Source: a virus
Virus record (IMG/VR): IMGVR_UViG_3300043015_000282
Span: 1 to 26,106 of that record
DNA: 26,106 nucleotides
Direction: 5' to 3' (one strand)
In this document: positions 5,336 through 19,350 of the stretch, piece by piece
Layout of the letters: each line of letters starts with the position of its first letter
Position numbering within the stretch: the stretch's first letter is position 1
Program-made: the position numbers and the translations under genes
The notes under the pieces: model-generated
Databases searched by the model: none
What the model saw: only the letters and a program-made list of their open reading frames with translations
Told to the model about the DNA's origin: nothing

Positions 5336-6478
5336 TTACTGGAAGGACACGTTTTGCAACGTAATGTGATCAACGTAGTCCGCCGCGTTACCCAATGAAC
5401 TTGCTGTGTTAGTAAGTTCTTTGTAACCATATCTTGTCATAAATGACACTACTGGTTCAAATGTAGCAGGATCCATAACTGGACCTGTGCTCATTAATGG
5501 GATATAAGGACAGTAGAATGCTGGAGCATCAGTTTCTGATGAACCTTTGTATCCTACTAATACGTCTGTACCGTCAGCCGCGTAGTTATCAGCAAATACT
5601 CTGATTGTTCCGTTTAGTGTTCCAACAAACTTAGTGTTTGTAGGTGCTTCAAAAGAACCTTCAGTTGTTCTAGCAAATGTTGATGTTGATGCACTTTGTA
5701 AAACAGTCAATGCTTCTGGAGAAACAACGATGTAGTTACCAGCACCACGTCTTGTTCTAGCCGCGATTCTGTTAGCACTTCTGTTGATCTCAATAGCCAA
5801 TGCCGCATGTCTATCACCGACATACACACTCTGACCACTTAAAGAACCAAAGTCTAAGTTATTTGTGCCTGTTCCTGCTAGTGATCTTAGTGAACCGATA
5901 ATTTCTTGGTCGATTTCAACTACAATCTCTTGTGCAAGAGCCTGCATAATTTCTGCTTCAACGTCTACACCATGCATTGCTTCTGCATCTTGCGCCGCTT
6001 CAAATGTCCATCTAGCACTTAAACGTCTTGTCTTTGCTTCGACAGTTTCTTTTAAGATTTGGATTGACATTTTTTTACCTGCTTGTCCTTCAGCAGATGC
6101 TGTTGCATCTGGAGAACCTGCATAGGTACCTGCAAGTTTAAAAGGACTTAAAGCCTCGTCACCTGCTGTTGCTCCACCACCAGTTTCCGCATAACGGACT
6201 CTTAGTGTGTGGATTTGTCCTACTGGACCAGTCATAGGCTGAACGCCTACTAGTTCGTTAGCAATAACAGAAGGCATAACCCTTCTAATTAATGGTAACA
6301 TAACTTTGTTTAATGTTGCTACTGAACCTGCGCCTGTGGCACCTGCTGTTGCGGCCTCTGACAAATGTCTCTTTGTATTTTCGAGGACCACATCTAATGA
6401 AGATTTTCTGTTTCCAGATAAGCCTTCAAGCAAAGCGTCTTTAGTTGCGGACCAGTTGCTTTCAAATAATTCTGCCAT
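5336..6478 (-). CDS. 23: Major capsid protein gp23
   Basis: A 380-residue protein with the T4 gp23 hallmarks: ANELVGVQPMTGPVGQIH near residue 77, and YIPLMSTGPVMDPATFEPVV with SFMTRYGYKEL near the C-terminus. It forms the hexamers of the HK97-fold head. It is shorter than T4 gp23 (521 residues), mainly because insertion domains are reduced. The N-terminal region contains HLSE|AATAGA: Leu-x-Glu followed by Ala at residues 39-42 fits the cleavage specificity of the gp21 prohead protease, predicting a mature protein that starts at Ala42. It is the last gene of the head operon, with AGGAG upstream of the ATG and only 12 bp after the gp22 stop, followed by a strong terminator. This is the most secure identification in the window. 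Confidence 0.97.
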   Translation of the reverse strand: MAELFESNWSATKDALLEGLSGNRKSSLDVVLENTKRHLSEAATAGATGAGSVATLNKVMLPLIRRVMPSVIANELVGVQPMTGPVGQIHTLRVRYAETGGGATAGDEALSPFKLAGTYAGSPDATASAEGQAGKKMSIQILKETVEAKTRRLSARWTFEAAQDAEAMHGVDVEAEIMQALAQEIVVEIDQEIIGSLRSLAGTGTNNLDFGSLSGQSVYVGDRHAALAIEINRSANRIAARTRRGAGNYIVVSPEALTVLQSASTSTFARTTEGSFEAPTNTKFVGTLNGTIRVFADNYAADGTDVLVGYKGSSETDAPAFYCPYIPLMSTGPVMDPATFEPVVSFMTRYGYKELTNTASSLGNAADYVDHITLQNVSFQ

Positions 6479-6490
6479 TTCTAACTCCTG

Positions 6491-7603
6491 TTATTTTGAA
6501 AGTCCGGCTAATTTACGGATCATATCAATTTCTACGATATTTTCCGCTTTGTCATCGGCTTCTGCAGTTATTACAGCCGCCTTATTACCAGTATATTCAC
6601 TAGTAACTGATTCTGACAACGTCTTCTTCACTCTTGGTGTATCTCCATCTAAAACTGAAGGTAAGTACTTATTAAAGGACTCTTCCAGTTTTTCAGTTTT
6701 TACACTTTCAAGTAAATCTGACATGATTTCTTTCTTCTCTTTACCAAGTGGTGCCATTAGATCATTTAATGTTTCTTTACGATTCATTTGATCTTCTGCT
6801 ATTCTTAACTTAGATTCAGTTAATTTAACTGCATCCTCTTTCTCAGCAATTATTTGCTTAGATTCATTAAGTTTAGTTTCCATCTCAGCGATTTGTTTCT
6901 GTACTTTCTTGATTTCTTTTGCTTCATTCAGATAACTTACGTTAAATTCATTTGCAAATGCTTCAAAAATTCTTCGACCGAAGTCGTTTTCACGAGCCTT
7001 AGTAATATCATCACGGAAAGATTTAACTTCATTAGTAATAGTCTTGTTGACAACTGTTTCCACTTTGTCAGCCGCTTTTCTAATAAAGTCTTTTTTGGCT
7101 TCTGCTAATTGCTTCTTGCCTTCTTTTACCATTTTGACTTTTTGTTCTACTAAAGATTTCTTATCTTCGTGGAACTCTGATAGTTCACTAGCAAGTTGCT
7201 CAGTAACAAAATCATCTAATTTCGTCACATGTTCACTTGTTCTTGTTCTATCTGCTCTAAGTTCTTTAACTTCTTTTGCAACCATTTCAGTTACAAATTT
7301 GTCAAGCACTTTGGCATGCTCACTAATGGCTTTATGATACTTAACTCGATCACCTGCTAGGGCATCTTTTTCTTCTGCTATTAAAGAAATCTCTGCTTCT
7401 ACTTTTTCTGAGATAAATTTGTCCATTGCTTCAACAATTTGACCTTTGTCATGATCGTATCTTTGAGCAAATTCTTCTCTAAGTTCTGCAGTTAGTTCTT
7501 CTCTGGCTTCTGAAATTCTAGAATCCCATGCTTCTTGAAGAGCAGATTTAACGTCTTCTGTTAATTCCGCATTCTCAAGTAGATCTTTAAAATTCACTGC
7601 CAT
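6491..7603 (-). CDS. 22: Prohead core scaffold protein gp22
   Basis: A 370-residue, highly charged, nearly Cys-free protein that is predominantly long coiled coil (about residues 20-300, with repeated E/K/A/L heptads). It begins MAVNFKDLLENAELTEDVK and ends DMIRKLAGLSK. It lies exactly between the protease gp21 and capsid gp23, as scaffold gp22 does in T4 and cyanophages. The scaffold fills the prohead, directs capsid assembly around the portal and is then degraded by gp21. The start is supported by GGAG before the ATG; the gap to gp21 is 9 bp and to gp23 12 bp. Identification rests on position and coiled-coil character, because scaffold sequences diverge quickly. Confidence 0.88.
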   Translation of the reverse strand: MAVNFKDLLENAELTEDVKSALQEAWDSRISEAREELTAELREEFAQRYDHDKGQIVEAMDKFISEKVEAEISLIAEEKDALAGDRVKYHKAISEHAKVLDKFVTEMVAKEVKELRADRTRTSEHVTKLDDFVTEQLASELSEFHEDKKSLVEQKVKMVKEGKKQLAEAKKDFIRKAADKVETVVNKTITNEVKSFRDDITKARENDFGRRIFEAFANEFNVSYLNEAKEIKKVQKQIAEMETKLNESKQIIAEKEDAVKLTESKLRIAEDQMNRKETLNDLMAPLGKEKKEIMSDLLESVKTEKLEESFNKYLPSVLDGDTPRVKKTLSESVTSEYTGNKAAVITAEADDKAENIVEIDMIRKLAGLSK

Positions 7604-7612
7604 CGTAGTCTC

Positions 7613-8239
7613 CTACTTTATTTTTAATTCATTAATGAAGCCAGTGATAGCCTTCATTAAATGTTTTTCTGCACTTTTATCGTGTGTTAATGCACTAGCG
7701 GTATCAAACAATGTTGCTCCGCCACGCATGTTAAATAAACTTTCATAGATTGTCTTAGGAAAGGCATCTGGTGCACTGGGCTGAGCCACAATGTCTACTG
7801 TTACTATATCGAAGTCGCTTACTCGTCCACTTTCGTTTACGTTTCCGCTACCTCTACTTGATACGCCCAGTTTTGCTCCTGATTGTAATAATGCTTTTGC
7901 AATATTTCCCATAGGTGTTTCTATGATTTTTAGTTTACCTAAACCATTTGAGTCATCACATGACATATCTGTAATGATATGACTCACTCTATCTAGGTTA
8001 ATTTGTAACTCTTCTGGATGATCTAACTCACCCATTACAGTTTCACCTTTTGACAACCTTTCAGTTACACTTTTAACAGCCTTTTGTATTTCTTCTTTTG
8101 GATATACTCTACCGTTTTGGTTTTTTACATCGCCTTGAATAAATAGGCCTGACATATATAAATTTTTGCCATCCTCAGATTCAGTAATCTGAACCTTAGA
8201 TTGCTCTGGACTCATATATTCGTATAACTTATTTGCCAT
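7613..8239 (-). CDS. 21: Prohead core protease gp21
   Basis: A 208-residue protein matching the T4 prohead serine protease family: NGRVYPKEEI (about residues 42-51), GELDHPEEL with probable catalytic His74, and LGVSSRGSG with probable nucleophile Ser127 or Ser128. The segment DIVTVDIVAQPSAPDAFP (about residues 143-160) is also typical. It matures the prohead by cutting scaffold, core proteins and gp23 at Leu/Ile-x-Glu sites. It is close to the T4 length of about 212 residues. TAGGAG precedes the ATG. It lies between the acidic core protein and the scaffold, the canonical order. Confidence 0.95.
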   Translation of the reverse strand: MANKLYEYMSPEQSKVQITESEDGKNLYMSGLFIQGDVKNQNGRVYPKEEIQKAVKSVTERLSKGETVMGELDHPEELQINLDRVSHIITDMSCDDSNGLGKLKIIETPMGNIAKALLQSGAKLGVSSRGSGNVNESGRVSDFDIVTVDIVAQPSAPDAFPKTIYESLFNMRGGATLFDTASALTHDKSAEKHLMKAITGFINELKIK

Positions 8240-8263
8240 TGTTTAACTCCTACTTAGAAAGAC

Positions 8264-9082
8264 TTATGCCTTTTTAGGTTCAACCTTAATGTTGTCTGTA
8301 GGTGTGTTATCTGCTGGTTTGTTGTTACCCATGTTGCCGTCGCTACCATCTTTTGCTTTAACAGGTGTACCTGCTCCGCTAACTGTAGTTTTCTTAGGTG
8401 CTTTTGTTAAAGGACTTTCGCCTTCGCCTTCACCTGCGCCGCCTTTTGGATCTGCAACTTTATCTTGTAATTTGGTTGCTTCTTCAACAACGTCTTCATC
8501 TCGAATTTCTTCATCTAGATCATATTCAACTGATTCTAAATCAAGTTCATCTTCCATGTCGTCTGCATCCATTTCTGCTTCTTCGCCGTCTTCCATGTCT
8601 GCTTCGTCGTCGTTTGCTAATAATTTTTCAAATTCTGCTTTAAGATCTTCCAACTCATCTTCGATGTTGTCAACTTTATCTTCTAAGTCTTCTTCACCTT
8701 CAGGTGCTTCTTCATCATCTTCTTCGCCGAATGTGTCTGAAGCAATTTCTTCTTCATCAGCAAGGATATCGTCTTCAAAATCGTTTGTTTGATCAATTAC
8801 TTCATCAACTTCAAACTCTTCTTCAACTGCTTCTTCTTCTGACTCTTCTGCTTCTTCAACAGCCTCTTCTTCAGATTCCTCTGATTCTTCAACTGCTTCG
8901 TCTTCTGACTCTTCTGCTTCTTCAATTTCTTCTTCTTCAGAAACGTCTTCGTCTAAAACTTTTTCATATTCTGCTCTTGCTTTTGCAACAACATACTCAT
9001 GAAGCATTTCTTCCGCTTTTTCGTTTTCTTCAGCAAGGAGAAGTTCAAGAATTTCTTCTAATTTACTTCTTGATTCTGACAT
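8264..9082 (-). CDS. Acidic prohead core protein, gp67/gp68-like
   Basis: A 272-residue, extremely Glu/Asp-rich protein. The N-terminal helix (about residues 6-44, SKLEEILELLLAEENEKAEE) resembles the short helical head of T4 gp67/gp68. It is followed by an acidic repeat tract (residues 54-89), further acidic coil (about 95-200) and a Lys/Gly/Pro-rich tail. T4 places genes 67 and 68 between portal gene 20 and protease gene 21, and this gene occupies that place apart from two inserted ORFs. It is much longer than T4 gp67 (80 residues). Its likely role is an internal core component that gp21 cleaves, possibly leaving acidic internal peptides. A very strong Shine-Dalgarno (AAAGGAGG) precedes the ATG. 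Sequence alone cannot separate gp67-like from gp68-like. Confidence 0.72.
   Translation of the reverse strand: MSESRSKLEEILELLLAEENEKAEEMLHEYVVAKARAEYEKVLDEDVSEEEEIEEAEESEDEAVEESEESEEEAVEEAEESEEEAVEEEFEVDEVIDQTNDFEDDILADEEEIASDTFGEEDDEEAPEGEEDLEDKVDNIEDELEDLKAEFEKLLANDDEADMEDGEEAEMDADDMEDELDLESVEYDLDEEIRDEDVVEEATKLQDKVADPKGGAGEGEGESPLTKAPKKTTVSGAGTPVKAKDGSDGNMGNNKPADNTPTDNIKVEPKKA
8816..8923 (-). repeat. Acidic coding repeat (AEESEEEAVEE-type)
   Basis: Three imperfect copies of a unit of about 11-13 codons reading EESEEEAVEEAE or variants occur in tandem in the acidic core protein (residues 54-89). The DNA repeats too, with 'gactcttctgcttcttc' found twice, which suggests recent slippage or duplication. 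Confidence 0.7.
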
Positions 9083-9162
9083 TATGGCCTCCTTTAATCG
9101 AATAAAATGTCGTAACTGTAAAATAACTTTTACAACTTATGTCTAATACTTATATATAAGGT

Positions 9163-9216
9163 GTGTTTTACTGTGTAAAACGGTGTGATTTTGATGTGAT
9201 ACGAGTGTTTTACTGT
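9163..9216 (-). repeat. 12-bp direct repeat and palindrome in the core-gene leader
   Basis: GTGTTTTACTGT occurs at 9163-9174 and again at 9205-9216. The first copy is part of a perfect 7-bp palindrome, GTTTTAC-TGT-GTAAAAC, at 9165-9181. Both lie in the roughly 150-nt leader between the late promoter at 9237-9244 and the core-protein ATG at 9082. This could be a binding site or leader structure. The rest of 9083-9219 holds no ORF I can support. Confidence 0.5.
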
Positions 9217-9219
9217 ATT

Positions 9220-10257
9220 TTATGATTGTGCAAGTTTATTTATCATATTATAGTTAAATTCTAAAACTTCATTTATTTGCGAAGAATTTAATAAATCATG
9301 TAACTCTTGTATTGTATACTTAGAACAAATGTTTTTTGTTTGCTCTAAAACAGCATCTACACGTTGCTCAGGGTCAAATATATTATCATAGGATTCATCA
9401 AATAATATATTTTCAAAAGTCTTAAATCCTATTTTCTTTAATTGGTCTAATGCTTTATAATCGCCTATAAGTAAAAAAGGACGTTTGTAAAATATACTTC
9501 TCCACAGTTTTTCAGTATAAAATATGTCTTTCCACCAAGAAAAAGGCACATAAAAGCCAGCACTTGTTTCTGTTATAACATCAAAATAAGAACCATAAAA
9601 AACATCATAAAAGTCTTGATGTTGAGGTGCATGACACATATGATACCCAGATTGATCTCTTTTTGGCTGAATCTCTATTGGTAACTGTTCTGCTATATAA
9701 CCCAGTGATTTATCATAAAACAAGTTTATAGCATCTCTATCAAACATAAAGGTACATTTACTTTTATCTATAAGATTATTTTCAAATAAAAATTCACATG
9801 CTTGAATACGTTGAGGTCTAGAAACACCATTTAGACAACTAAAATAATAAGGCCTGATGCTATCGCTATAATTATCAGATATATCTGTATGTGTATCTAC
9901 GGTTTGTTTTAACCAAAACTCTTTAGTTGCAACTGTCTTAAATTTAGGTCTATCGTATAAATCACAATATCTTTCGTAATTTTCGCTTATAAGATAATTG
10001 CCTGATAAAAATGTAACTCTATTAGGGTCTATATTGCAATAGTCAAGAATATCTAATATAGCAGTAAAAATATCTTTTGTGCTATTAACTCGATCTAAAT
10101 AATGATTACGTTCTGTAGAATAGTCTAATACAAAATCTTTTGTACTATGATGTAAATTTAATAAAGTATTTTTTAAACGTGTAGGAAGTTCATTCGACGA
10201 TTGTAAAAGTATTTCTATGTGTGTACTTTTTTCTGTATGTAATAACTGTGTGATCAC
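9220..10257 (-). CDS. Unknown protein, weakly glycosyltransferase-like
   Basis: A 345-residue, aromatic-rich soluble protein. I do not recognise it with confidence. The C-terminal segment (about residues 245-310) reads FYTEKLWRSIFYKRPFLLIG and then LKKIGFKTFENILFDESYDN. This resembles a phrase in uncharacterised marine-virus proteins often listed beside glycosyltransferases (SEKTxKPI-x-PFLLIG, LKxxGFKTF, SYD), so sugar transfer is a weak inference. An FSCLNGVSRPQR segment sits near residue 165. The start codon is GTG with no clear Shine-Dalgarno sequence, 9 bp after the preceding small ORF, so translation may be coupled. It interrupts the canonical portal-core-protease order and looks like an inserted accessory gene. 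A late promoter octamer overlaps its 3' end and serves the next gene. Confidence 0.6.
   Translation of the reverse strand: MITQLLHTEKSTHIEILLQSSNELPTRLKNTLLNLHHSTKDFVLDYSTERNHYLDRVNSTKDIFTAILDILDYCNIDPNRVTFLSGNYLISENYERYCDLYDRPKFKTVATKEFWLKQTVDTHTDISDNYSDSIRPYYFSCLNGVSRPQRIQACEFLFENNLIDKSKCTFMFDRDAINLFYDKSLGYIAEQLPIEIQPKRDQSGYHMCHAPQHQDFYDVFYGSYFDVITETSAGFYVPFSWWKDIFYTEKLWRSIFYKRPFLLIGDYKALDQLKKIGFKTFENILFDESYDNIFDPEQRVDAVLEQTKNICSKYTIQELHDLLNSSQINEVLEFNYNMINKLAQS
9237..9244 (-). promoter_or_regulatory. Predicted late promoter inside an upstream ORF's end
   Basis: Exact GATAAATA on the minus strand within the last codons of the 345-residue ORF. It would start transcription near 9231, giving a leader of about 150 nt for the core protein, protease, scaffold and capsid genes. 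It lets the abundant core and capsid genes be expressed independently of the portal. Confidence 0.6.
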
Positions 10258-10266
10258 AAGTTAGGT

Positions 10267-10470
10267 TTACATCATCCCGGCATCTTGTGCAGGTGGCATA
10301 TACATTGTTTTTACAAACTTATCATGCTCTGCATTCTCGGCATTTTTAATTGCTTTGATTTTACGCATTTTATTTAATTGCTCTAAGGTAAGTTTAGGCT
10401 TTCTAGTATCGTCCTGAGTACGTTTTTGAAATTCGTCAAATTCAGGATTGTAAAATTCATTTAATCTCAT
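10267..10470 (-). CDS. Small conserved protein after portal
   Basis: A 67-residue, charged protein, MRLNEFYNPEFDEFQKRT to PPAQDAGMM, with a central stretch DDTRKPKLTLEQLNKMRKIK. I recognise this type of short ORF from the same place, directly after gene 20, in cyanophage genomes; its function there is undefined. I chose the internal ATG at 10470 over the upstream one at 10497. The internal start lies 1 bp after the portal stop and has AGAGG about 6 nt upstream, whereas the longer version would overlap gp20 by 26 bp. Its location suggests a role in prohead assembly (inference). Confidence 0.75.
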   Translation of the reverse strand: MRLNEFYNPEFDEFQKRTQDDTRKPKLTLEQLNKMRKIKAIKNAENAEHDKFVKTMYMPPAQDAGMM

Positions 10471-10471
10471 A

Positions 10472-12178
10472 TTATACCTCTGGTGGTACGTCACCACCTA
10501 ATCCAGGTTCTCCAGTAGTATTTATACCTAAATCGCCTTCGGGACTAGGAGGTACTTGATCGAAAGGAATACTTGCTCCAGGATCTACCATTGCATTAGG
10601 ATCTGGTCTTATACCAATATTTCTTAAATCTGCGTCTGTGCTGTCATCTGTGTATTTTTGATAATCGTTTTCTTTACGCCATAGTTCTTCGTTTTGTTTC
10701 ATTTCTAATTCTGTTAGACCTAGATACTTTTGTAATTTAAACTGATTGCTTAAATATGGTATTGCGGCAACTTGGTTAAAGAGTGTGGCACGTTCAGCAT
10801 CTAATGATAACTCTCTGTAAGAACTAAAGTTCATTGGTGGATTAAATGTTATTTCAAATCCACTACTGTCTATATCAATACCTCTGTATTTTATAAACAT
10901 TTTAAATTCGTGGTCTAGATCTTCCTGTATTTGTTTCTGTAGTCGTTCTATGTATCTAGCAAATCTATATTCTTGTATATATGCAATACCTACTTTACCG
11001 TCATTATACATTGCTGACCCGTCTTCTGGTCCTGAAGGAAGATAACTGCTAGGTATACGCAAACCTCTAAGTAGTTTATTATTAAAATATCTAAGGTCGT
11101 CTATTTGTCCTAAGTTTTCACCGCCTGGTAAAGTATCAACTTTACTACCTCTACCATCTGCCGTTTGAGCAAAGAAGTAATCTTCTAACATACTCATTGG
11201 GTTATAGGCCGCATCTGCTACACCGTTGCCGTCTTTGTTTTTATTTGGTACACGTTTTTGTTGTACTTCATATTTAACTTGCTCTAAATACTGTCTTGCT
11301 TTGTGAGGTGGCATATTACCAACATCAATAAAGAACACACGTCTTTCAGGTGCTCTATGTACTCTGTATATAATAATAGAATCTTCTAATAGTTCTTTTT
11401 GCTTGAACACTTTAAATATAGGTTCAAGAATACTAACACCAAATGGCCATGCATGATCCATACCTTCTGTTAAACTAACATGTACAATGTGTTTAGCATC
11501 TACAGGTGATCCTTGGTCTACACCGTCCATAGCACCTGTCAAATAATTACCAGTTGATGTTCCTACATTACCGCCAGCCATCATGCCGCCACCTGCACCA
11601 TATGGTCTCGAATGCAAAGGTGCAACATCAGTTGCTACTAACTGTTCAAAGTTTGCTTGTAAATTTTTTATAAAATAAGTTTCAATTTTCTTACCTTCAC
11701 TTTCGTTTACAATGACTTTTTCTATGTTTGCTGGATCGACCCAGTAAAGTTTGTATGTTTCTGGATCTCTAATAAAGAATTGATCGCCATATTTTATTGT
11801 GCTACGAAATATTCTAAATGCTCTTTTATGCATTTCATTAAGTCTGCACCATTGTTCTAATGATTTTGTAAGGATTTTATTTTCAGTATCGCTTGGTTTT
11901 CCTTTGTAACTTAATTCAAATGGAAATTTTGAAGTTGCTTCTGCTTGTGAGCCGAATTCTGCAATAGTATCTAATGCGGCATTGACTTCTAGATCATTAT
12001 CCATCTGATCATACTGCATATATCTCATGAGCCTATTAGGACTTCCAGCATAAACTTCAGGTAACCAACTAGCATACCTACTTGTTGCGGCTCCTGGGCC
12101 TGAAGTATCTTTACTACCAGTTACGTTTAACGGTAAACCGCTGTTATCGACTGATGTAAAATATTTTCTCCAACTCAT
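10472..12178 (-). CDS. 20: Portal vertex protein gp20
   Basis: A 568-residue protein of the T4 gp20 family. Characteristic segments include SWLPEVYAGSPNRLMRYMQYD and DLEVNAALDTIAEF near the N-terminus, VHRAPERRVFFIDVGNMP in the middle, and LRIPSSYLPSGPEDGSAMYN about two thirds through. Twelve copies form the ring at the head's unique vertex, which nucleates prohead assembly, passes DNA and joins the neck. It is slightly longer than T4 gp20 (524 residues). AAAGGA precedes the ATG. It heads the head operon and has both a late-type octamer and a sigma-70-like promoter overlapping upstream. Confidence 0.96.
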   Translation of the reverse strand: MSWRKYFTSVDNSGLPLNVTGSKDTSGPGAATSRYASWLPEVYAGSPNRLMRYMQYDQMDNDLEVNAALDTIAEFGSQAEATSKFPFELSYKGKPSDTENKILTKSLEQWCRLNEMHKRAFRIFRSTIKYGDQFFIRDPETYKLYWVDPANIEKVIVNESEGKKIETYFIKNLQANFEQLVATDVAPLHSRPYGAGGGMMAGGNVGTSTGNYLTGAMDGVDQGSPVDAKHIVHVSLTEGMDHAWPFGVSILEPIFKVFKQKELLEDSIIIYRVHRAPERRVFFIDVGNMPPHKARQYLEQVKYEVQQKRVPNKNKDGNGVADAAYNPMSMLEDYFFAQTADGRGSKVDTLPGGENLGQIDDLRYFNNKLLRGLRIPSSYLPSGPEDGSAMYNDGKVGIAYIQEYRFARYIERLQKQIQEDLDHEFKMFIKYRGIDIDSSGFEITFNPPMNFSSYRELSLDAERATLFNQVAAIPYLSNQFKLQKYLGLTELEMKQNEELWRKENDYQKYTDDSTDADLRNIGIRPDPNAMVDPGASIPFDQVPPSPEGDLGINTTGEPGLGGDVPPEV

Positions 12179-12195
12179 ATTAATCCTTTATGTAT

Positions 12196-12224
12196 ATAAT
12201 ACACTATTTATCGTATATTGTCAA
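12196..12224 (-). promoter_or_regulatory. Sigma-70-like promoter before portal
   Basis: On the minus strand, TTGACA (12219-12224), a 17-bp spacer and TATTAT (12196-12201). It matches 11 of 12 consensus bases with ideal spacing. The late octamer GATAAATA lies inside the spacer. Confidence 0.5.
12205..12212 (-). promoter_or_regulatory. Predicted late promoter of the head operon
   Basis: Exact GATAAATA on the minus strand; predicted start near 12199, leaving a leader of about 20 nt with AAAGGA before the gp20 ATG at 12178. Confidence 0.7.
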
Positions 12225-12247
12225 CTAGTTCAATGTGAATTGATATA

Positions 12248-14674
12248 TTATGAATTTTGTTCTATTGCTTTTGTGGATTTTTTGGTTTGTTCATTAATCT
12301 TAATTAATCTATTTAAACTCATAAGTAACGACGACATGCTGTCGTCACTAAATGTTGCATCTGGTTGGATATAACCTTCTGAATTTGGGTTACGATTGTC
12401 CATTGCTACATGCCTACTCTTAATAGTGTCTTGATTTTCTAAGAATTGTATTAAGGCTTGTCTGTATTTTTCCTGTGTTTCTTTGTCTTTTTGGAATGCT
12501 GTCTTTACTGCTGACATCATTGTCTCTTCTGTAAAGTCAACTATTCCGCCAGTTTGGTTAGCCATTGCTAACGTTTCATTTCCAAATTTAAATGCTTCGT
12601 CTTTATATCTGTATTCATCTGAAGATTTGCCTATTACACCGAAAGACAAGTTATTTACAGCAGAACTAATTCCTCTGCCGGTTTTTTGCAATCCACCTTC
12701 TCCAGTTTGGGCACCTGCTACACCTTCAGAAACAGCCATATATGCACCTATAGGTGCAAGTATTTTGGTAAAAAGGCCTTTGCCTACTACTTTACCCAAG
12801 CCTGGTTTTTTAGGTGATTTGGGTTTATCTGGGCCATCTGAACTAATTGGATTACCATCTGCTCCTAGAATTGAACCTGCGGCAGTACTCACAGTGGCTC
12901 CGGTGGCTACTGTGGTGGCTACTTTTGTAGAAGTCGGCACCTTTCCTTTAGTAGGTACTAATGGTATTCCTCTGGTTAATGCTAATGCTGTAATTAAGGC
13001 TACCATGGCACCTATTACTTTTGGGTGGGTAAATAGCAGTTCCATTGCATATACTAAACCCTCTACGAGAGCCTCCATTGATTTTTCTAAAAGTGTCGAT
13101 ATACCTACCTTTACCATCTCACCAAGTTCTTTAAATGTCATACCTGACTCGGTTAACGCAGTCATTAATCCATCTAGATAGTCAATAAATTCAGCAGTTT
13201 TTTGTCCTACTCTTCTACCAAAATCCATTAAGCCGGTTTCAGCATCACCTAATGCTGTATTCACAAATCTAAAGAAAGAATGTGTAAGGTTTTCCATACT
13301 GGTAGTAACATCTAGTAACCCGTCTCCAAATCCAGACATAAATGTGTTAAGAACTTGATCAATTATAGTACTAAACCTTTTAACAATTACATTAAAAGCA
13401 TTAAATCCTTTTTGTACAGGTATAGGATCTAACCCCATTTTTTCTAATCTTTTTGCAGACTGTTCAAATTGAACAACTGCTTTTGCTAATTCTTTAGCAG
13501 TCTCATCGCCTGCCCTTGCAAAAGCAAATATTCTATCACGTTCAACATTTGAAAGATTGCCTAATTGTTGAGCAAACTGTTCAGATACATCTGCACCATC
13601 TAATACACCGCTCTCAAAATCTCTGATTGCACCGTTCATTGTTGATGCTAACGATGGTAATACTGTGACAAAATTCATTGCCGCATCAGAGAATCCTAAT
13701 GCGCCAAATGTTGCGGCTTCTAAAGTAGCCGCCCCAAGTTCGCCACCTACTTCGCCACCTAATGCTCTCATGGTACCTAAAAAGTCTGTTGCGCCTTTTA
13801 ATAAATTTTCTCTTGCCATAGTAGGCACTCTTAACAATGCTGAAGAAAATGCACCGTTGTCGTCTAATACATTTCTTACAAAACTTTGTATTGCTTCAAC
13901 ACTAGTACCTAATGCTTGGGCATAAATTACTTGTTTTCTTGTGGTGTCTACAATGTTTGCAGTAAGTAGAGATCGCTGTTTTGCATCTACAGTTCCTAAA
14001 TTAAGATATTCTGTTCTTGCAGTTAATTCTTTAGTATACATATTAACAGAATCATCTAATGTTAAACCTAAATTAACACCATAACTTGTTAATTTTAAAA
14101 ATTCTGCTGTTGCATTAGCAATGCCTCCAGTCAACAATCTCGTAACTTGAGAATTGTCCATCATAATATCTGTTGCATCTTCTGTACTAATACCTAAGTT
14201 ATTAAAATTAATCAGAGATTGCATTACTGCTCGGCCTTGACTTTCGTTAAATGCAATACCGGATTTTGTTAGATCGTTAAATACATTTCCTAAATTTATT
14301 GCCCTACCGGCTGTTACAGTTAAACCTGTTAAAAATATTCCACCTAATGTTAAACCAACTTTTCCAATAGTATCAAAAACACTACCAGTAAATTCACCAA
14401 TTGCTACTTCATAACTTTTTCTTATTTTTTCATTTGACCGATCCATCTCTTTAGTGAAATCGTCCATTGACTTTTTAAATGTTTTAGAATTGCTGGATGT
14501 TTCGTTAGAAAGGTTATTGATTGATTTTTCCAGAGTTTTTGTATTAAAACTTCCATCTAATTTTTCCAAAGCCTTAAGCATTTCTTCTTGTGTGCTTTGT
14601 TTTGCATAGGCAGGCAATTCAACAGACTGCGGATTGCCGTCTATATCAATTGTTATTTTTGTCCAGTCTGCCAT
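12248..14674 (-). CDS. Probable tail tape-measure protein
   Basis: An 808-residue, largely helical protein. About residues 25-95 form a charged coiled coil. A hydrophobic segment follows (GLTLGGIFLTGLTVTAG, about residues 105-125), then a long helical Ala/Leu-rich body. Further hydrophobic stretches lie near residue 560 (VIGAMVALITALAL) and in the Ala/Thr-rich VATTVATGATVSTAAGS region, followed by a Lys/Pro/Gly linker and a short coiled tail. This layout (coiled coil with interspersed hydrophobic helices) is typical of tape-measure proteins, which set tail length and are ejected at infection. T4 gp29 has this role, but I see no clear residue-level match. The neighbouring divergent gp26 gene with its apparent frameshift supports the call, because tail chaperones usually lie beside the tape measure. 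Another large virion protein cannot be excluded. Confidence 0.68.
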   Translation of the reverse strand: MADWTKITIDIDGNPQSVELPAYAKQSTQEEMLKALEKLDGSFNTKTLEKSINNLSNETSSNSKTFKKSMDDFTKEMDRSNEKIRKSYEVAIGEFTGSVFDTIGKVGLTLGGIFLTGLTVTAGRAINLGNVFNDLTKSGIAFNESQGRAVMQSLINFNNLGISTEDATDIMMDNSQVTRLLTGGIANATAEFLKLTSYGVNLGLTLDDSVNMYTKELTARTEYLNLGTVDAKQRSLLTANIVDTTRKQVIYAQALGTSVEAIQSFVRNVLDDNGAFSSALLRVPTMARENLLKGATDFLGTMRALGGEVGGELGAATLEAATFGALGFSDAAMNFVTVLPSLASTMNGAIRDFESGVLDGADVSEQFAQQLGNLSNVERDRIFAFARAGDETAKELAKAVVQFEQSAKRLEKMGLDPIPVQKGFNAFNVIVKRFSTIIDQVLNTFMSGFGDGLLDVTTSMENLTHSFFRFVNTALGDAETGLMDFGRRVGQKTAEFIDYLDGLMTALTESGMTFKELGEMVKVGISTLLEKSMEALVEGLVYAMELLFTHPKVIGAMVALITALALTRGIPLVPTKGKVPTSTKVATTVATGATVSTAAGSILGADGNPISSDGPDKPKSPKKPGLGKVVGKGLFTKILAPIGAYMAVSEGVAGAQTGEGGLQKTGRGISSAVNNLSFGVIGKSSDEYRYKDEAFKFGNETLAMANQTGGIVDFTEETMMSAVKTAFQKDKETQEKYRQALIQFLENQDTIKSRHVAMDNRNPNSEGYIQPDATFSDDSMSSLLMSLNRLIKINEQTKKSTKAIEQNS

Positions 14675-14704
14675 TCAAAATCCATTAACTATAGTTTTAA
14701 CTGT

Positions 14705-14712
14705 GATAAATA
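14705..14712 (+). promoter_or_regulatory. Predicted late promoter of gp26
   Basis: Exact GATAAATA on the plus strand. Predicted start near 14718, with a leader of about 49 nt containing AGGAG before the ATG at 14767. It forms one arm of a perfect 10-bp inverted repeat with the opposing late promoter. Confidence 0.7.
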
Positions 14713-14732
14713 TAACGATAGTATCACATGTA

Positions 14733-14740
14733 TATTTATC
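14733..14740 (-). promoter_or_regulatory. Predicted late promoter of the tape-measure gene
   Basis: Exact GATAAATA on the minus strand. Predicted start near 14727, with a leader of about 53 nt before the ATG at 14674. The transcript runs back across the gp26 promoter. Confidence 0.7.
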
Positions 14741-14766
14741 AAGTTTATTAACAGGAGTTTTAATAC

Positions 14767-15618
14767 ATGACAAATCAACCAAATCCATTAGTAAACCACT
14801 TTAGGTCTCCTAAATTATATGTTAAGTTACCTAGTGGTACAAGTCTATACTCAGAAGATGTTATAGAAATACCAGAGTCAGGAGAGATTCCTATTTTTCC
14901 TATGACTGCAAAAGATGAAATCATGATGAAAAATCCTGATGCATTATTAAACGGAGAAGCAACAACACAACTATTAATGAGTTGTTGTCCAAATATTAAA
15001 AAGCCTTTAGACATATATGCACCTGATGTTGATGCACTATTAGTAGCAATTACTGGTGCTTCAAACAATGACGATATTCCAATTAATGCACCTTGTCCAA
15101 AATGCGAAGAAGTTTGCGAAATTACTTTAAGTGCTGAAAATGTATTAGAATTAATGGGTACATTAGAAGAAAGTTATAAACTTAATGTTGGCGATGAATT
15201 AGTTATTGAACTTAGGCCTTACACTTACAGAAGTACAGTAAAAGCCGGCTTAGCAAATTTTCAAAGTACTAGAAGTCTACAATCACTCAGTGATATACCA
15301 GATGATTTAGATAGGTTAAAATTATTTAATGAAAACTTTGTACGTCTTGCTTCATCTAATTTTGAATTACTAGTTGATAGTGTACAAAGCATTACTATTC
15401 TAAACAAAGATAAAGATATTGTAGTAACTGATCGTATGCAAATATTAGAATTTTTAGAAAATTGCGATGGGCATATTGGAAAAACAATAAGCGAAGAAAC
15501 TAATACTATTAATAATATAGGAATTGCGGATCAGGCTACTTTTGAATGTGAAAAATGTGAAGAAACATTTGAAAATACTATATCGTTTGACCCTGTAAAT
15601 TTTTTCATGGCTTCCTAG
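14767..15618 (+). CDS. 26: Baseplate/tail assembly protein gp26
   Basis: A 283-residue protein that I assign to the T4 gp26-type baseplate family from its N-terminal pattern (PSGTSLYSEDVIEIPESGEI, then FPMTAKDEIMMKNPDALLNG, residues 22-64), which is conserved in cyanophage gp26. Cys110/Cys113 (CPKC) and Cys261/Cys264 (CEKC) could form a zinc ribbon whose halves are 148 residues apart. AGGAG lies upstream of the ATG. In T4, gp26 acts in baseplate hub assembly. Here the gene faces the tape-measure gene across a shared promoter region. Its 3' end carries a slippery heptamer within a short overlap with a -1 frame ORF, so this reading is probably the shorter of two products. Confidence 0.8.
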   Translation: MTNQPNPLVNHFRSPKLYVKLPSGTSLYSEDVIEIPESGEIPIFPMTAKDEIMMKNPDALLNGEATTQLLMSCCPNIKKPLDIYAPDVDALLVAITGASNNDDIPINAPCPKCEEVCEITLSAENVLELMGTLEESYKLNVGDELVIELRPYTYRSTVKAGLANFQSTRSLQSLSDIPDDLDRLKLFNENFVRLASSNFELLVDSVQSITILNKDKDIVVTDRMQILEFLENCDGHIGKTISEETNTINNIGIADQATFECEKCEETFENTISFDPVNFFMAS

Positions 15619-15839
15619 GTTCGGCTGAGCCCGACGCTATTGTTGGGTACCTAAAGAGGCTTAAAGACGAGTCGACCCAACTACAAAAACAAATTATGGA
15701 ACTGGTAGTATATTCTAGCGGTACTATATCCTATTTTGACTGTATGCTATTATCTAGATTAGAACGCGAATTATTTGCTAAAACTCTAACAGACTTCATT
15801 AACAAGAAAGCAGGTAAAGATACAGATGATTATCTATAA
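14767..15839 (+). CDS. gp26 -1 frameshift fusion (predicted long form)
   Basis: If ribosomes slip -1 at 15600-15606, residues 1-280 of gp26 continue as HGFLGSAEPDAIVGYLKRLK and on to KKAGKDTDDYL, ending at the stop at 15837-15839. This adds 77 residues (357 total). The extension is amphipathic and charged (LKRLKDESTQLQKQI, then MLLSRLERELFAKTLTDFIN) and looks like real protein. It has no ATG, GTG or TTG in its first part; its only ATG (about 15696) would lose the first 30 codons and has no Shine-Dalgarno sequence. The -1 frame is closed by TGA just upstream (about 15588-15590), so the switch must occur within the short overlap, exactly where the heptamer lies. Short and long forms made by frameshift are the hallmark of tail-assembly chaperones beside tape-measure genes (lambda G/GT, P2 E/E'). 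Confidence 0.68.
15597..15653 (+). promoter_or_regulatory. Predicted -1 frameshift signal
   Basis: In the gp26 frame, AAT TTT TTC (15598-15606) offers two X-XXY-YYZ heptamers: T TTT TTC (15600-15606) and A AAT TTT (15597-15603). After a 9-nt spacer, TAGGT (15616-15620) can pair with ACCTA (15649-15653). Between them CCCGAC (15630-15635) pairs with GTTGGG (15642-15647) around a 6-nt loop. Slippery site, spacer and stem match the usual stimulator geometry. Confidence 0.6.
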
Positions 15840-16350
15840 TATTTTAGGGTTAAGCACTTTATAGACACTTCGTGTCTTATCAAACTACATTCAATCGTTT
15901 CGTTTCACTACACTCTTTCACTTGTTTGAAATTAACTCCGTTATCACGAAACAAGAGCCAAAATTCACCTGTTGCCAGATGAATTAAAAAATGGTCATCA
16001 CGATGGACAATCGCCATCTCCAACTCGGGTGCTATTAGGAACCAGTAAGCCTTTTGTCCCCATACACTACCGTCACTGCTTTCGCACTTACGGAAACTAA
16101 TATAAACTTGTGGAGTTCGTTTATATTAATTCTCAGGTTGCTTTTTCCCAGAGCCTGAATACTTTTAATACTGTTTATCGTGTGTTTGTATCTTTGCCGT
16201 CATACATCTCCAGAATCTCGCACCGGGTGTTTCCATTGCCGGATTGTCAAAGAGCCCGATTTAATATGCCTCGGTTGGGGCCGGTGTATGATCCTATGTG
16301 TGCCTGTATTAGTATGACTTGGTGTCTGAATGTGCCTTAAGTGTATATAG
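15840..16350. other. GC-richer convergent intergenic island
   Basis: This gap of about 510 bp lies between the plus-strand gp26 unit and the 3' end of the minus-strand gp55-gp46 operon. My hand count gives about 43% GC for 15961-16320, clearly above the flanking genes. It contains a palindrome AGACAC-TTC-GTGTCT near 15862-15876, a perfect 10-bp hairpin (arms 16098-16107 and 16119-16128, TAATATAAAC/GTTTATATTA), and arms CTTGTTT/AAACAAG near 15932-15960. On the minus strand GCTCTTTGACAAT (16243-16255) resembles the boxA antitermination element of bacterial rRNA operons. I see no tRNA cloverleaf and no strong gene; a weak minus-strand ORF is listed separately. Possible origins are a degraded acquired fragment, a structured RNA or a terminator region. 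Confidence 0.45.
15880..16017 (-). pseudogene. Weak ORF, possible truncated gene remnant
   Basis: An ATG at 16017 opens 45 codons (MAIVHRDDHFLIHLATGEFW to KRLNVV). The same frame is open upstream without any ATG or GTG to 16125, reading QVYISFRKCESSDGSVWGQK and AYWFLIAPELE, which also looks protein-like. The aromatic and charged composition suggests past coding, with the true N-terminus lost. No homologue is recognised. It lies just downstream of the GIY-YIG gene on the same strand. Confidence 0.3.
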
Positions 16351-16776
16351 TTATTTCTTTGTCAGTGACTCTTTAAGAATTTCTGAGCCACCTACTCTCA
16401 CATTGATAATACCATTGTAATATTCGTCTGTGAGTAGCACTTTTCTTTCAAATTGTTCTTGTGCTTCTAAGTAACTTGCAACACCTCTACTAGGACAATA
16501 ATGTAATATTTCTCTAGTAAAACTGCTTTCTCCAAGTTCTTCGACATCTGCATTTAAATGATCTGAACTCCCCCAATATGTACGCCAATCACTTTCCTTT
16601 GTACCACGACGTTTATTCTTTTTGCCTTTTAAGGGAGGTTTGGTTGTTTTGAACTTTGCTAACTTTTTACCTATGTACTTTTTATTGTTTGTAGTGTTAG
16701 TAATCAAATAAACAAATGCTTCGCAGTCTTCTGGTAATATATCTACAACACTACCATTATAAGTCCAGTTTGCCAT
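16351..16776 (-). CDS. GIY-YIG family endonuclease-like protein
   Basis: A 141-residue protein with a GIY-YIG nuclease core: FVYLITN (residues 21-27) and KKYIGKK (32-38), a basic segment KGKKNKRRGTKESDWRTYWG (50-69) holding the likely catalytic Arg, and SYLEAQEQFE with probable metal-binding Glu104. The N-motif-like YYNGIINVRVGG follows at 119-130. This type is frequent in T4-like marine phages, often as a stable single-domain protein rather than an active homing enzyme; no separate DNA-binding domain is evident here. Its ATG overlaps the stop of the upstream gene by 1 bp (TAATG), so it belongs to the gp47-gp46 operon. It may cut DNA during recombination or host-DNA breakdown; that role is inferred. 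Confidence 0.8.
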   Translation of the reverse strand: MANWTYNGSVVDILPEDCEAFVYLITNTTNNKKYIGKKLAKFKTTKPPLKGKKNKRRGTKESDWRTYWGSSDHLNADVEELGESSFTREILHYCPSRGVASYLEAQEQFERKVLLTDEYYNGIINVRVGGSEILKESLTKK

Positions 16777-17597
16777 TATCTAACTTCTATACGATCTATA
16801 AAAAGATTTTCAGCAATAATGTCTAAGTCTGCTTTGCCTACTAATTTTCCTAAGGGTATACGACCGTATGCCATTCTTTTATCGTCTACATCGTAAGGTA
16901 ATTTTTTATACATTCTAGCCAAAAATCTTTTTGCTCTTATCAGCAAACTTTCTGGCGGCAAAAGGCTAGGCTTAGTAAAATAAACTAAAAAGTCCGGCTT
17001 TAAAACACTAGTAGGATGTATATGTTCTTTAGGAATAGTTACATCGTTATCAGTAAAAACAGCAAACGGATCTTTACCCACATGTGGGTAGTTCATATAT
17101 AATATGTCTGGAGTCGATTCTAATGTAAACAAGTCATAGTCATCATCTTCTAATGGTTCGCCTGTATAATTTGTTGTTGTAATAAATCTTTTGGGTGGTG
17201 TTTCAAATGCAACTATTTGCTCATACTGGTGTATTTTATAATTTAAAATACTTAACCAATGACTTAGTTTTTTATCTAATTCCGAGTCAGTGAGGTTACT
17301 ATGTAAATTTACAAAATTTTCATGCAAATAGTTAGCATCTATATTTTCTAAATTTAAATCAGGTCTAAGAGTTTTAATCTGTTCAACGCAGTTATGTAAA
17401 GATTTTTCTATATCTTCTAGACTATCATTAAATCCATAAAATCTATCTCGTGATACTGGCGGTAACGGATTCTTTAAACAAATTTCCCAAATCCTCCTTG
17501 CAACTCTATGATCGTATAATTTAAATGTAAGAGTATACGTAGGTGGCTTTTTTAAAAGAAATCTTGCTCGAGTATTTAAATGAAAATCAATCAACAT
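16776..17597 (-). CDS. Unknown 273-residue protein coupled to gp46
   Basis: A soluble protein of mixed charge that I do not recognise. It begins MLIDFHLNTRARFLLKKPPT and ends IAENLFIDRIEVR. The first half is helical and Asn/Asp/Leu-rich; the second contains TPDILYMNYPHVGKDPFAVF and a basic stretch (RAKRFLARMYKKLPYDVDDK, about residues 224-243). It has no signal peptide, no membrane segment and no clear catalytic motif. It starts 11 bp inside the end of gp46 and its stop overlaps the start of the GIY-YIG gene, so all three are probably translationally coupled. The tight coupling suggests a partner in gp46/gp47 recombination or DNA degradation, but this is inferred from position only. Confidence 0.75.
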   Translation of the reverse strand: MLIDFHLNTRARFLLKKPPTYTLTFKLYDHRVARRIWEICLKNPLPPVSRDRFYGFNDSLEDIEKSLHNCVEQIKTLRPDLNLENIDANYLHENFVNLHSNLTDSELDKKLSHWLSILNYKIHQYEQIVAFETPPKRFITTTNYTGEPLEDDDYDLFTLESTPDILYMNYPHVGKDPFAVFTDNDVTIPKEHIHPTSVLKPDFLVYFTKPSLLPPESLLIRAKRFLARMYKKLPYDVDDKRMAYGRIPLGKLVGKADLDIIAENLFIDRIEVR

Positions 17598-19350
17598 ATT
17601 CAGTATCAGTATTGTATGCAGTAAAGCCGCCTTCTTTTACTACTGTTAAAACATTATTTACACGACCCACAAGTTCTTCCTTGTGAGAAATGAGCATAAT
17701 ATTTTTGCCTTGTTCTCTATGCATTTTTTTAAGTATGCCTAACGCATTCTCTACACCCATACTGTCCATTCCGCTATCGATAAGTTCATCGATACACATT
17801 AAGTTCATTGGCCTATTAAGACTTTCGTACATGTCTCTAAATGCCCAACTTAGACCTAATATAAGTCTATTACGTTCTCCTCTACTTAGATTATCAAAGT
17901 CTAAGTCTCTGCCATATTCAGTAATTTCAACACCAAGATCACTTGCAAATTTTACATCATGAGGTAAACCTAGTTTTTCCAAATAATGTGCAAGTCTATG
18001 ATTAAGGTACATTATATTTTGATCTATAATTTTCTTTCTAATAAAACTATCTTTGCTTGTTAATAATTTATATAAAAATTCTTGATGATCTTGTAAAAAT
18101 GTTAGTTCATTCATTTTATCAAAACTTATATTTTGAATTCCTGTATTTCGTAAAGATTCTATTTGTTCAATATATGGATTTAATTCGTCTGCTTTTTCTT
18201 CTAATTGTGACTTTAATGTTTCTAAGTTATGTTTATGTGATAGTGCATCTTCTAATGATGTATAATTGATTACCGGTTCTTCAGGGATATCAAATGTTTC
18301 TAATTCTTTTTTAAGTGTTGATACTTTTTCAAAAATCTCATCATAATAAATTTGCTCTGCACCTATCTTTTCTTCTAATTCTTTTGTGTATTCTTCGTGT
18401 GTTTCTAAATGTGCTGTGTCTTGTCCACATGCAGGACAAGTGCCTGATTTTGCATCTTCGAAATTATTTTTTAATTCATTTAATTTATTTAAACTTCTAT
18501 CAAGTGAACGCTCTGCCGTGCTAAGATCTTTTGTAGTAGTTTGTTCTTTTACTTTTTCTTCTTTGATAGCATGTGATAATTTATGATTTTCTAATTCTTT
18601 TTCTATATCAACTTGCTCTAGATTTATAATAGCATTACCCAGTTCGATAATTTTATCTTCTTTGTTTCTTTCCCATGCCTTACTACGACTTTCTATCTCT
18701 TTAACATTTAACTCTATACGTTTGTTACTTGCCTCTATAGTATTGATAGTTATTTCTTCTTCTTTGATACTATCTCTTGTATCTTTTTGGCGATCTTTTA
18801 GTACTTCTGCTTTACGAGATAAATCAGTAATTCCTAATAACTGTTCAATCATATCTCGTTGATCGTTGTTTTTCATTGATAAGAAAGGTTCGGTGTAAGT
18901 GTTTAGTGCAATTAAATGCTTAAACATGTTATGTGGAAAACCGATAATTTTTTCTATTTCTTTTTGTGTTTCTCTGCTGTCGCCCTGCTGTTCATTATCT
19001 AATGCATCCTCGCCATTTATAAACAATCTTAATACATTAGGTTTTCTTCCTCGCTCGATTCTATATTCACGACCTTCTATTTCGAATTCGACAGTGGTCA
19101 TCATGCCCTTGCCGTTTGTCTTGTTTATAAGATTATCTTTTCGAATATTTGTTAATGCTTCGCCGTATAATGCATAACTGAGTGCATTTATTATAGTAGT
19201 TTTTCCAGTACCATTTCTGCTACCGTCACCACCCATGTCTAAGTTATGGCCTAAAACTAATGTAAGTTGACAACCATCAAAGTTTACTGCCTGTGTGTTG
19301 TTACCAACACTCATAAAATTCTTTGCTGATACGTTCTTAATTTTTAGCAT
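17587..19350 (-). CDS. 46: Recombination endonuclease subunit gp46 (Rad50/SbcC-like)
   Basis: A 587-residue SMC-like ATPase. Walker A is at about residues 43-52 (GSRNGTGKTT). Two long coiled-coil arms flank a zinc hook with Cys305 and Cys308 (CPACGQ). The signature motif is LSRGERNRLILGL near 490, and Walker B is LMCIDELIDSGMD near 530, followed by a conserved His region (MLISHKEEL). With gp47 it forms the phage Mre11-Rad50-type complex that resects DNA ends for recombination-dependent replication and degrades host DNA. It is close to the T4 length (560). Its ATG lies inside the end of the 39-residue ORF (14-bp overlap), with AAAGGA upstream. Confidence 0.96.
   Translation of the reverse strand: MLKIKNVSAKNFMSVGNNTQAVNFDGCQLTLVLGHNLDMGGDGSRNGTGKTTIINALSYALYGEALTNIRKDNLINKTNGKGMMTTVEFEIEGREYRIERGRKPNVLRLFINGEDALDNEQQGDSRETQKEIEKIIGFPHNMFKHLIALNTYTEPFLSMKNNDQRDMIEQLLGITDLSRKAEVLKDRQKDTRDSIKEEEITINTIEASNKRIELNVKEIESRSKAWERNKEDKIIELGNAIINLEQVDIEKELENHKLSHAIKEEKVKEQTTTKDLSTAERSLDRSLNKLNELKNNFEDAKSGTCPACGQDTAHLETHEEYTKELEEKIGAEQIYYDEIFEKVSTLKKELETFDIPEEPVINYTSLEDALSHKHNLETLKSQLEEKADELNPYIEQIESLRNTGIQNISFDKMNELTFLQDHQEFLYKLLTSKDSFIRKKIIDQNIMYLNHRLAHYLEKLGLPHDVKFASDLGVEITEYGRDLDFDNLSRGERNRLILGLSWAFRDMYESLNRPMNLMCIDELIDSGMDSMGVENALGILKKMHREQGKNIMLISHKEELVGRVNNVLTVVKEGGFTAYNTDTEYVD

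Follow-up and report, generated by a model that had tools for sequence, protein, structure and literature searches.

A probable frameshifted tail-assembly chaperone gene, gp26, beside the tape-measure gene of a marine T4-like phage

The gp26 locus of a 26-kb virus record with T4-like genes (hereafter the window, that is, the entire stretch of 26,106 nucleotides that was analyzed) is very likely the tail-assembly chaperone gene of a marine T4-like myophage, which would be expressed as a short and a long form through -1 slippage at the end of gp26 (Table 1). Under the proposed mechanism, most ribosomes would terminate at the TAG codon of gp26 and release the 283-aa short form, and a minority would slip by -1 at T TTT TTC, where the two tRNA-Phe could re-pair on TTT TTT, to give a predicted long form of 357 aa ending at 15839; the downstream hairpin would probably aid the slip. 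On the model of lambda G/GT and T4 gp26/gp51, the short form would coat the tape-measure protein encoded by the divergent neighbor, and the predicted all-helical tail of the long form would recruit another tail part. We infer the occurrence of slippage, its efficiency and the chaperone role, the last of these from T4 gp26/gp51, the tape-measure neighbor and the literature.

Table 1. Features of the gp26 locus, in window coordinates
Feature	Position	Strand	Basis
Tape-measure protein gene, 808 aa, divergent neighbor of gp26	12248..14674	-	homology to relatives' tape measures
gp26, short form (TAC-N), 283 aa	14767..15618	+	PF12322 match, AlphaFold2 model
A AAT TTT, second possible slippery heptamer	15597..15603	+	sequence; sole heptamer in eight relatives
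T TTT TTC, main slippery heptamer	15600..15606	+	TTTTTTN in 88/99 non-identical loci
-1 frame extension	15606..15839	+	77 residues after slip, then TAA
Downstream hairpin, likely stimulator	15609..15661	+	conserved position, weak covariation

The slip site and the -1 extension

The gp26 gene starts with the ATG at 14767 and ends with the codons GTA AAT TTT TTC ATG GCT TCC TAG (stop at 15616-15618), in which both T TTT TTC and A AAT TTT are in register with the gp26 frame for a -1 slip. From 15591, after a TGA at 15588-15590, the -1 frame stays open up to the TAA at 15837-15839 and comprises 82 codons, 77 of them past the slip; the predicted long form corresponds to join(14767..15606, 15606..15839). 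Past the gp26 stop, this frame contains no ATG, GTG or TTG before the ATG at 15696, which lies 27 codons further on and lacks an upstream Shine-Dalgarno-like sequence. The original prediction had described the same stops, the 77-residue open frame without a usable start codon and both heptamers within the overlap, and all of this is confirmed by direct reading of the sequence.

The extension is predicted to be all-helical (AlphaFold2, pLDDT 88.7). Family searches with the window extension alone returned nothing significant, as did a fold search, and tblastn yielded only three weak matches, two of which are located directly downstream of gp26. A sequencing error or a broken gene was rejected because the same arrangement is found in 99 loci, and stop-codon readthrough because the extension lies in a different frame from gp26.

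Downstream of the heptamer, the two-part stem that the original prediction had placed at a distance of 9 nt is indeed present (15616-15620 pairing with 15649-15653, and 15629-15635 with 15642-15648), and an additional outer helix (15609-15614 with 15656-15661) appears in the fold of the window. The energy of this hairpin is -20.9 kcal/mol (z -1.58; equalled or beaten by 14 of 200 shuffled sequences). Across 94 loci, folding relative to shuffled sequences is stronger in the 55 nt right after the heptamer (mean z -1.36) than in three comparison windows (-0.26, -0.29 and -0.54). RNAalifold over 41 relatives found no consensus structure. The named stem pairs well and shows little covariation; given that its 5' arm is nearly invariant, covariation cannot support it. 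Some form of downstream stimulator is likely to be present; as an element of the locus, the stem is weaker than the heptamer.

Conservation across gp26 loci

Relatives of gp26 were obtained from scans of viral contigs and, for the more distant ones, from annotated phages, and comprise 99 non-identical loci from window-type marine phages, jumbo phages, cyanophages, Aeh1- and KVP40-like phages and Rhizobium phages. In all 99, a -1 extension continues beyond the gp26 stop; it is at least 50 residues long in 98 (the remaining one ends with its contig at 38 aa), and 96 loci have a slippery heptamer within the overlap. The loci are of unequal relatedness, and these figures count sequences and not independent events. 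As controls, we used 432 further ORFs (150 codons or more) from the same sequences; only two of them combine a heptamer with an extension of at least 50 aa, and none contains a run of six T. One of the control matches comes from phage S-PM2 (L033, 26809-27534). This ORF, of no assigned function, has A AAA AAG close to its end, and its -1 frame of 94 residues overlaps with the annotated gene that follows; this combination is probably due to chance, and gp26 was not found within the S-PM2 stretch examined.

The heptamer is TTTTTTN in 88 loci and A AAT TTT alone in eight, and its register relative to the gp26 frame is constant in all loci. T TTT TTC is present in SCTP-2, PA5oct, Atu_ph07, CBB, XaC1, 121Q, RaK2 and Phosso as well as in Vibrio 2.275, Sf-FS3, S-SM2, P-TIM40, EniLVp02, Aeh1, phiAS5 and IC12; the variants are T TTT TTT (XacN1, CM1 and pf16) and T TTT TTG (RL38J1). 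In the eight loci that keep A AAT TTT as the only canonical heptamer (L047, L064, L071, L079, L083, L084, L092 and L118, among them a marine sublineage), the end of gp26 has AAT TTT TC instead of AAT TTT TTC, and the site of slippage appears to be displaced by one codon. Three distant relatives, namely Cygsa01 (L032), ECML-4 (L034, Ackermannviridae) and Vibrio K469 (L039), have the -1 extension without a canonical heptamer; an overlapping TAATG occurs at the gp26 stop of Cygsa01 and Vibrio K469, and such a start is absent in ECML-4. These loci could employ either a non-canonical shift or separate translation of the extension. The alignment of gp26 loci, which had been proposed as a check, indicates conservation of the heptamer, the overlap and the -1 ORF among marine T4-like phages and most of the other T4-like groups sampled. 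Within the window's own lineage, we detected neither loci that lack a slippery site or provide a separate start codon nor signs that the extension is non-coding.

The pN/pS of the extension, calculated from 103 pairs of window-type relatives with moderate divergence, is 0.38 in the -1 frame, as opposed to 1.00 and 1.20 in the other two frames, and among 36 sequences of equal length the -1 frame contains no stop codons, compared with 207 and 270 in the other two. The extension is a conserved coding part of a protein, and the -1 frame is the only one under purifying selection. Among 48 relatives, conservation reaches 95% in the final 28 nt of gp26, versus 61% in the preceding 50 nt, as would be expected of a segment in which two frames overlap with a recoding site.

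The gp26 product and its link to T4 gp26 and gp51

The window gp26 belongs to the PF12322 family (53.2 bits, with a cut-off of 24.5), and its AlphaFold2 model (pLDDT 87) has, according to a fold search, the same predicted fold as the gp26 proteins of T4-like phages. Tail-assembly chaperones are very diverse. A search of the PDB with the model gave no match at E <= 0.001, and at the level of predicted structure no link to the lambda- or HK97-type chaperones was found. The gp26-like predicted fold was also detected in uncharacterized jumbo-phage proteins, namely B2ZYI8 of phiRSL1, A0A0K2QR08 of RSF1 and A0A191ZCG4 of Erwinia phage Special G (BFVD entries, E from 8e-7 to 1.3e-5), which are candidates for unrecognized tail-assembly chaperones.

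Both gp26 and gp51 of T4 match PF12322, and these two proteins are therefore paralogs. T4 gp51 additionally contains a C-terminal part covered by phrog_634; it is a full second copy of gp26 with the extension, a natural fusion of both parts. The phrog_634 profile is also matched by the -1 extensions of cyanophages, EniLVp02 and Aeh1, most of which match the C-terminus of phrog_150 as well. These extensions can be aligned to the end of T4 gp51, and F, N, E and R are invariant in the alignment. By this sequence similarity, the extension is the C-terminal part of T4 gp51 in cyanophages and in KVP40- and Aeh1-like phages. The window extension itself shows a weak match to gp51 (hhalign E 2.6e-4, probability 42%); together with the position and the shared FF start, this weakly ties the window-type extension to gp51. 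The original prediction had asked whether an ORF annotated as gp51 corresponds to the extension: this holds for the gp51-like ORF of cyanophages, but T4 gp51 consists of a gp26 copy plus the extension.

The conserved protein sequence of the extension begins at the slip site (FFHGFL). At the corresponding place, T4 gp26 ends with ...GLKEFFELL*, the T4 DNA reading GAG TTC TTT GAG, and T4 gp51 continues through the place where T4 gp26 stops. The simplest reading is that the T4 lineage swapped one frameshifted gene for a short and a long gene. The distribution, with one frameshifted gene in most of the T4-like and jumbo phages examined, suggests that this arrangement gave rise to the paralogous genes 26 and 51 in T4.

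The tape-measure neighbor

The gene divergently adjoining gp26 was predicted to encode the tape-measure protein, and comparison with homologs bears this out. Its product is homologous to TMP1 of L164 (contig IMGVR_UViG_3300017909_003416; E 4e-48) and to proteins of further relatives, and it is identified as a tape-measure protein because homologs, namely L164 TMP1 (5.8e-13) and a protein of L203 (8e-19), match PHROG tape-measure families. The L203 tape-measure protein (7505-10222) additionally matches tail-associated lysin and endolysin families at about residues 459-816 and, judging from these matches, may carry an enzyme domain.

The adjacency of gp26 to the tape-measure gene, in divergent orientation, is found in the window and its relatives. 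Across five relatives, the flanking genes are conserved (74-81% for the portal gene and 70-80% for gp46), and between them strong divergence affects the tape measure and gp26 in concert, with several tape-measure types that are about 22-30% alike and gp26 types that are about 30-51% alike. This sequence co-variation fits a chaperone that is matched to its client. When window positions 10472-19350 are compared with L201-L205, the tape measure and gp26 have the appearance of a mosaic cassette with well-conserved portal and gp46 flanks.

Two tape-measure/chaperone pairs per contig were observed in L164 (4518-13720) and in L200 (3300021960_000435; 5521-14489). In both, the second pair is inverted, and a TTTTTTC site with a -1 extension accompanies each of the chaperone genes; the two contigs terminate within or close to the second tape-measure gene, and the two-pair arrangement could possibly be a chimeric assembly. 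It is a rather doubtful conjecture that the tape measure and the chaperone form an exchangeable cassette in the marine T4-like group, with some phages carrying two complete cassettes, each with its own frameshift, and building a tail with two tape measures.

Alternative explanations

The extension is usually annotated as a small gene of its own, whose translation would follow the gp26 stop through re-initiation or translational coupling; the records give it a separate CDS, and the TAATG of Cygsa01 and Vibrio K469 suits such an interpretation. We consider separate translation very unlikely, given the 27 codons without ATG, GTG or TTG past the stop in the window, the conserved protein that begins right at the slip site, the slippery heptamer retained in 96 of the 99 loci, and T4 gp51, in which both parts are naturally fused. 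The six consecutive T at the site (seven in XacN1, CM1 and pf16) would also be compatible with a frame change brought about by the RNA polymerase instead of the ribosome. However, six T are few for slippage of this kind in bacteria, the heptamer keeps its register relative to the gp26 frame in all loci, and the run comprises just five T in eight loci, where A AAT TTT is in register, all of which makes polymerase slippage extremely improbable.

A different kind of objection would accept the frameshift and regard gp26 and its long form as structural proteins of the baseplate hub, not as chaperones of the tape measure. Genetic studies placed T4 gp26 in the hub (PMC3004832), and relatives are annotated as 'structural protein' or 'baseplate hub'. 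However, T4 gp51 is required but is missing from the completed particle, and the same source lists it together with gp26 among the hub assembly chaperones (PMC3004832); moreover, the tape measure and gp26 co-vary between conserved flanks. A structural role in the hub thus seems improbable. The proposal in the original prediction that gp26 and its extension are the tail-assembly chaperone pair of this lineage is supported, with the chaperone function suggested by analogy.

Comparison with known systems

As cited in the relevant passages of PMC10885494 and PMC12846349, the tail-assembly chaperones of T4-like phages were identified by Vladimirov, Gautam and Davidson (2022, Virology 566:9-15), who are also the source given in PMC12846349 for poly-T -1 sites in these genes; a passage of PMC10885494 adds that some T4-like phages have one short gene and one long fused gene, with no frameshift. 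Going by these citations, the frameshifted T4-like chaperone was already described in 2022, and the window is another member, from a new lineage. The sublineage with A AAT TTT only, the lineages without the heptamer, and the co-mosaic tape-measure/chaperone cassettes are possibly new. The analysis also corrects an annotation error, given that the T4-like records examined omit the extension or call it a separate gene; in cyanophage records, it is labeled 'baseplate hub assembly catalyst' (gp51-like, phrog_634). The name 'tape measure protein assembly chaperone' is already given to gp26 and gp51 in the Acinetobacter phage Stupor record. The sublineages that lack T TTT TTC represent natural tests of how the ratio of the short to the long form is kept.

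Lambda G/GT and other tail-assembly chaperones with a -1 frameshift were reportedly described by Xu, Hendrix and Duda in 2004. The lambda locus resembles the window in its two overlapping ORFs, the -1 slip at the end of the first ORF and the adjacent tape-measure gene. It differs in the slippery site, which is G GGA AAG in lambda and T TTT TTC in the window, and in the tape-measure gene, which is downstream on the same strand in lambda and divergent in the window, and no sequence or fold relation between G/GT and the window gp26 was detected. The chaperone gene of phage Adele (Vandenendeviridae/Andersonviridae), for which the frameshift was inferred by comparative genomics, is similar in that TAC-N has a poly-T -1 site close to its end and the -1 frame is open without interruption, but its motif is GTTTTT as opposed to TTTTTTC and the phage families differ (PMC12846349). 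The T4 gp26/gp51 pair shares with the window the PF12322 domain, the short and the long form, and a C-terminal extension that starts at the same place; in T4, however, there are two paralogous genes and the slippery site is lost, whereas the window has one gene with a -1 site, its gp26 is longer (283 aa versus 208 aa), and its extension is only weakly similar to that of T4.
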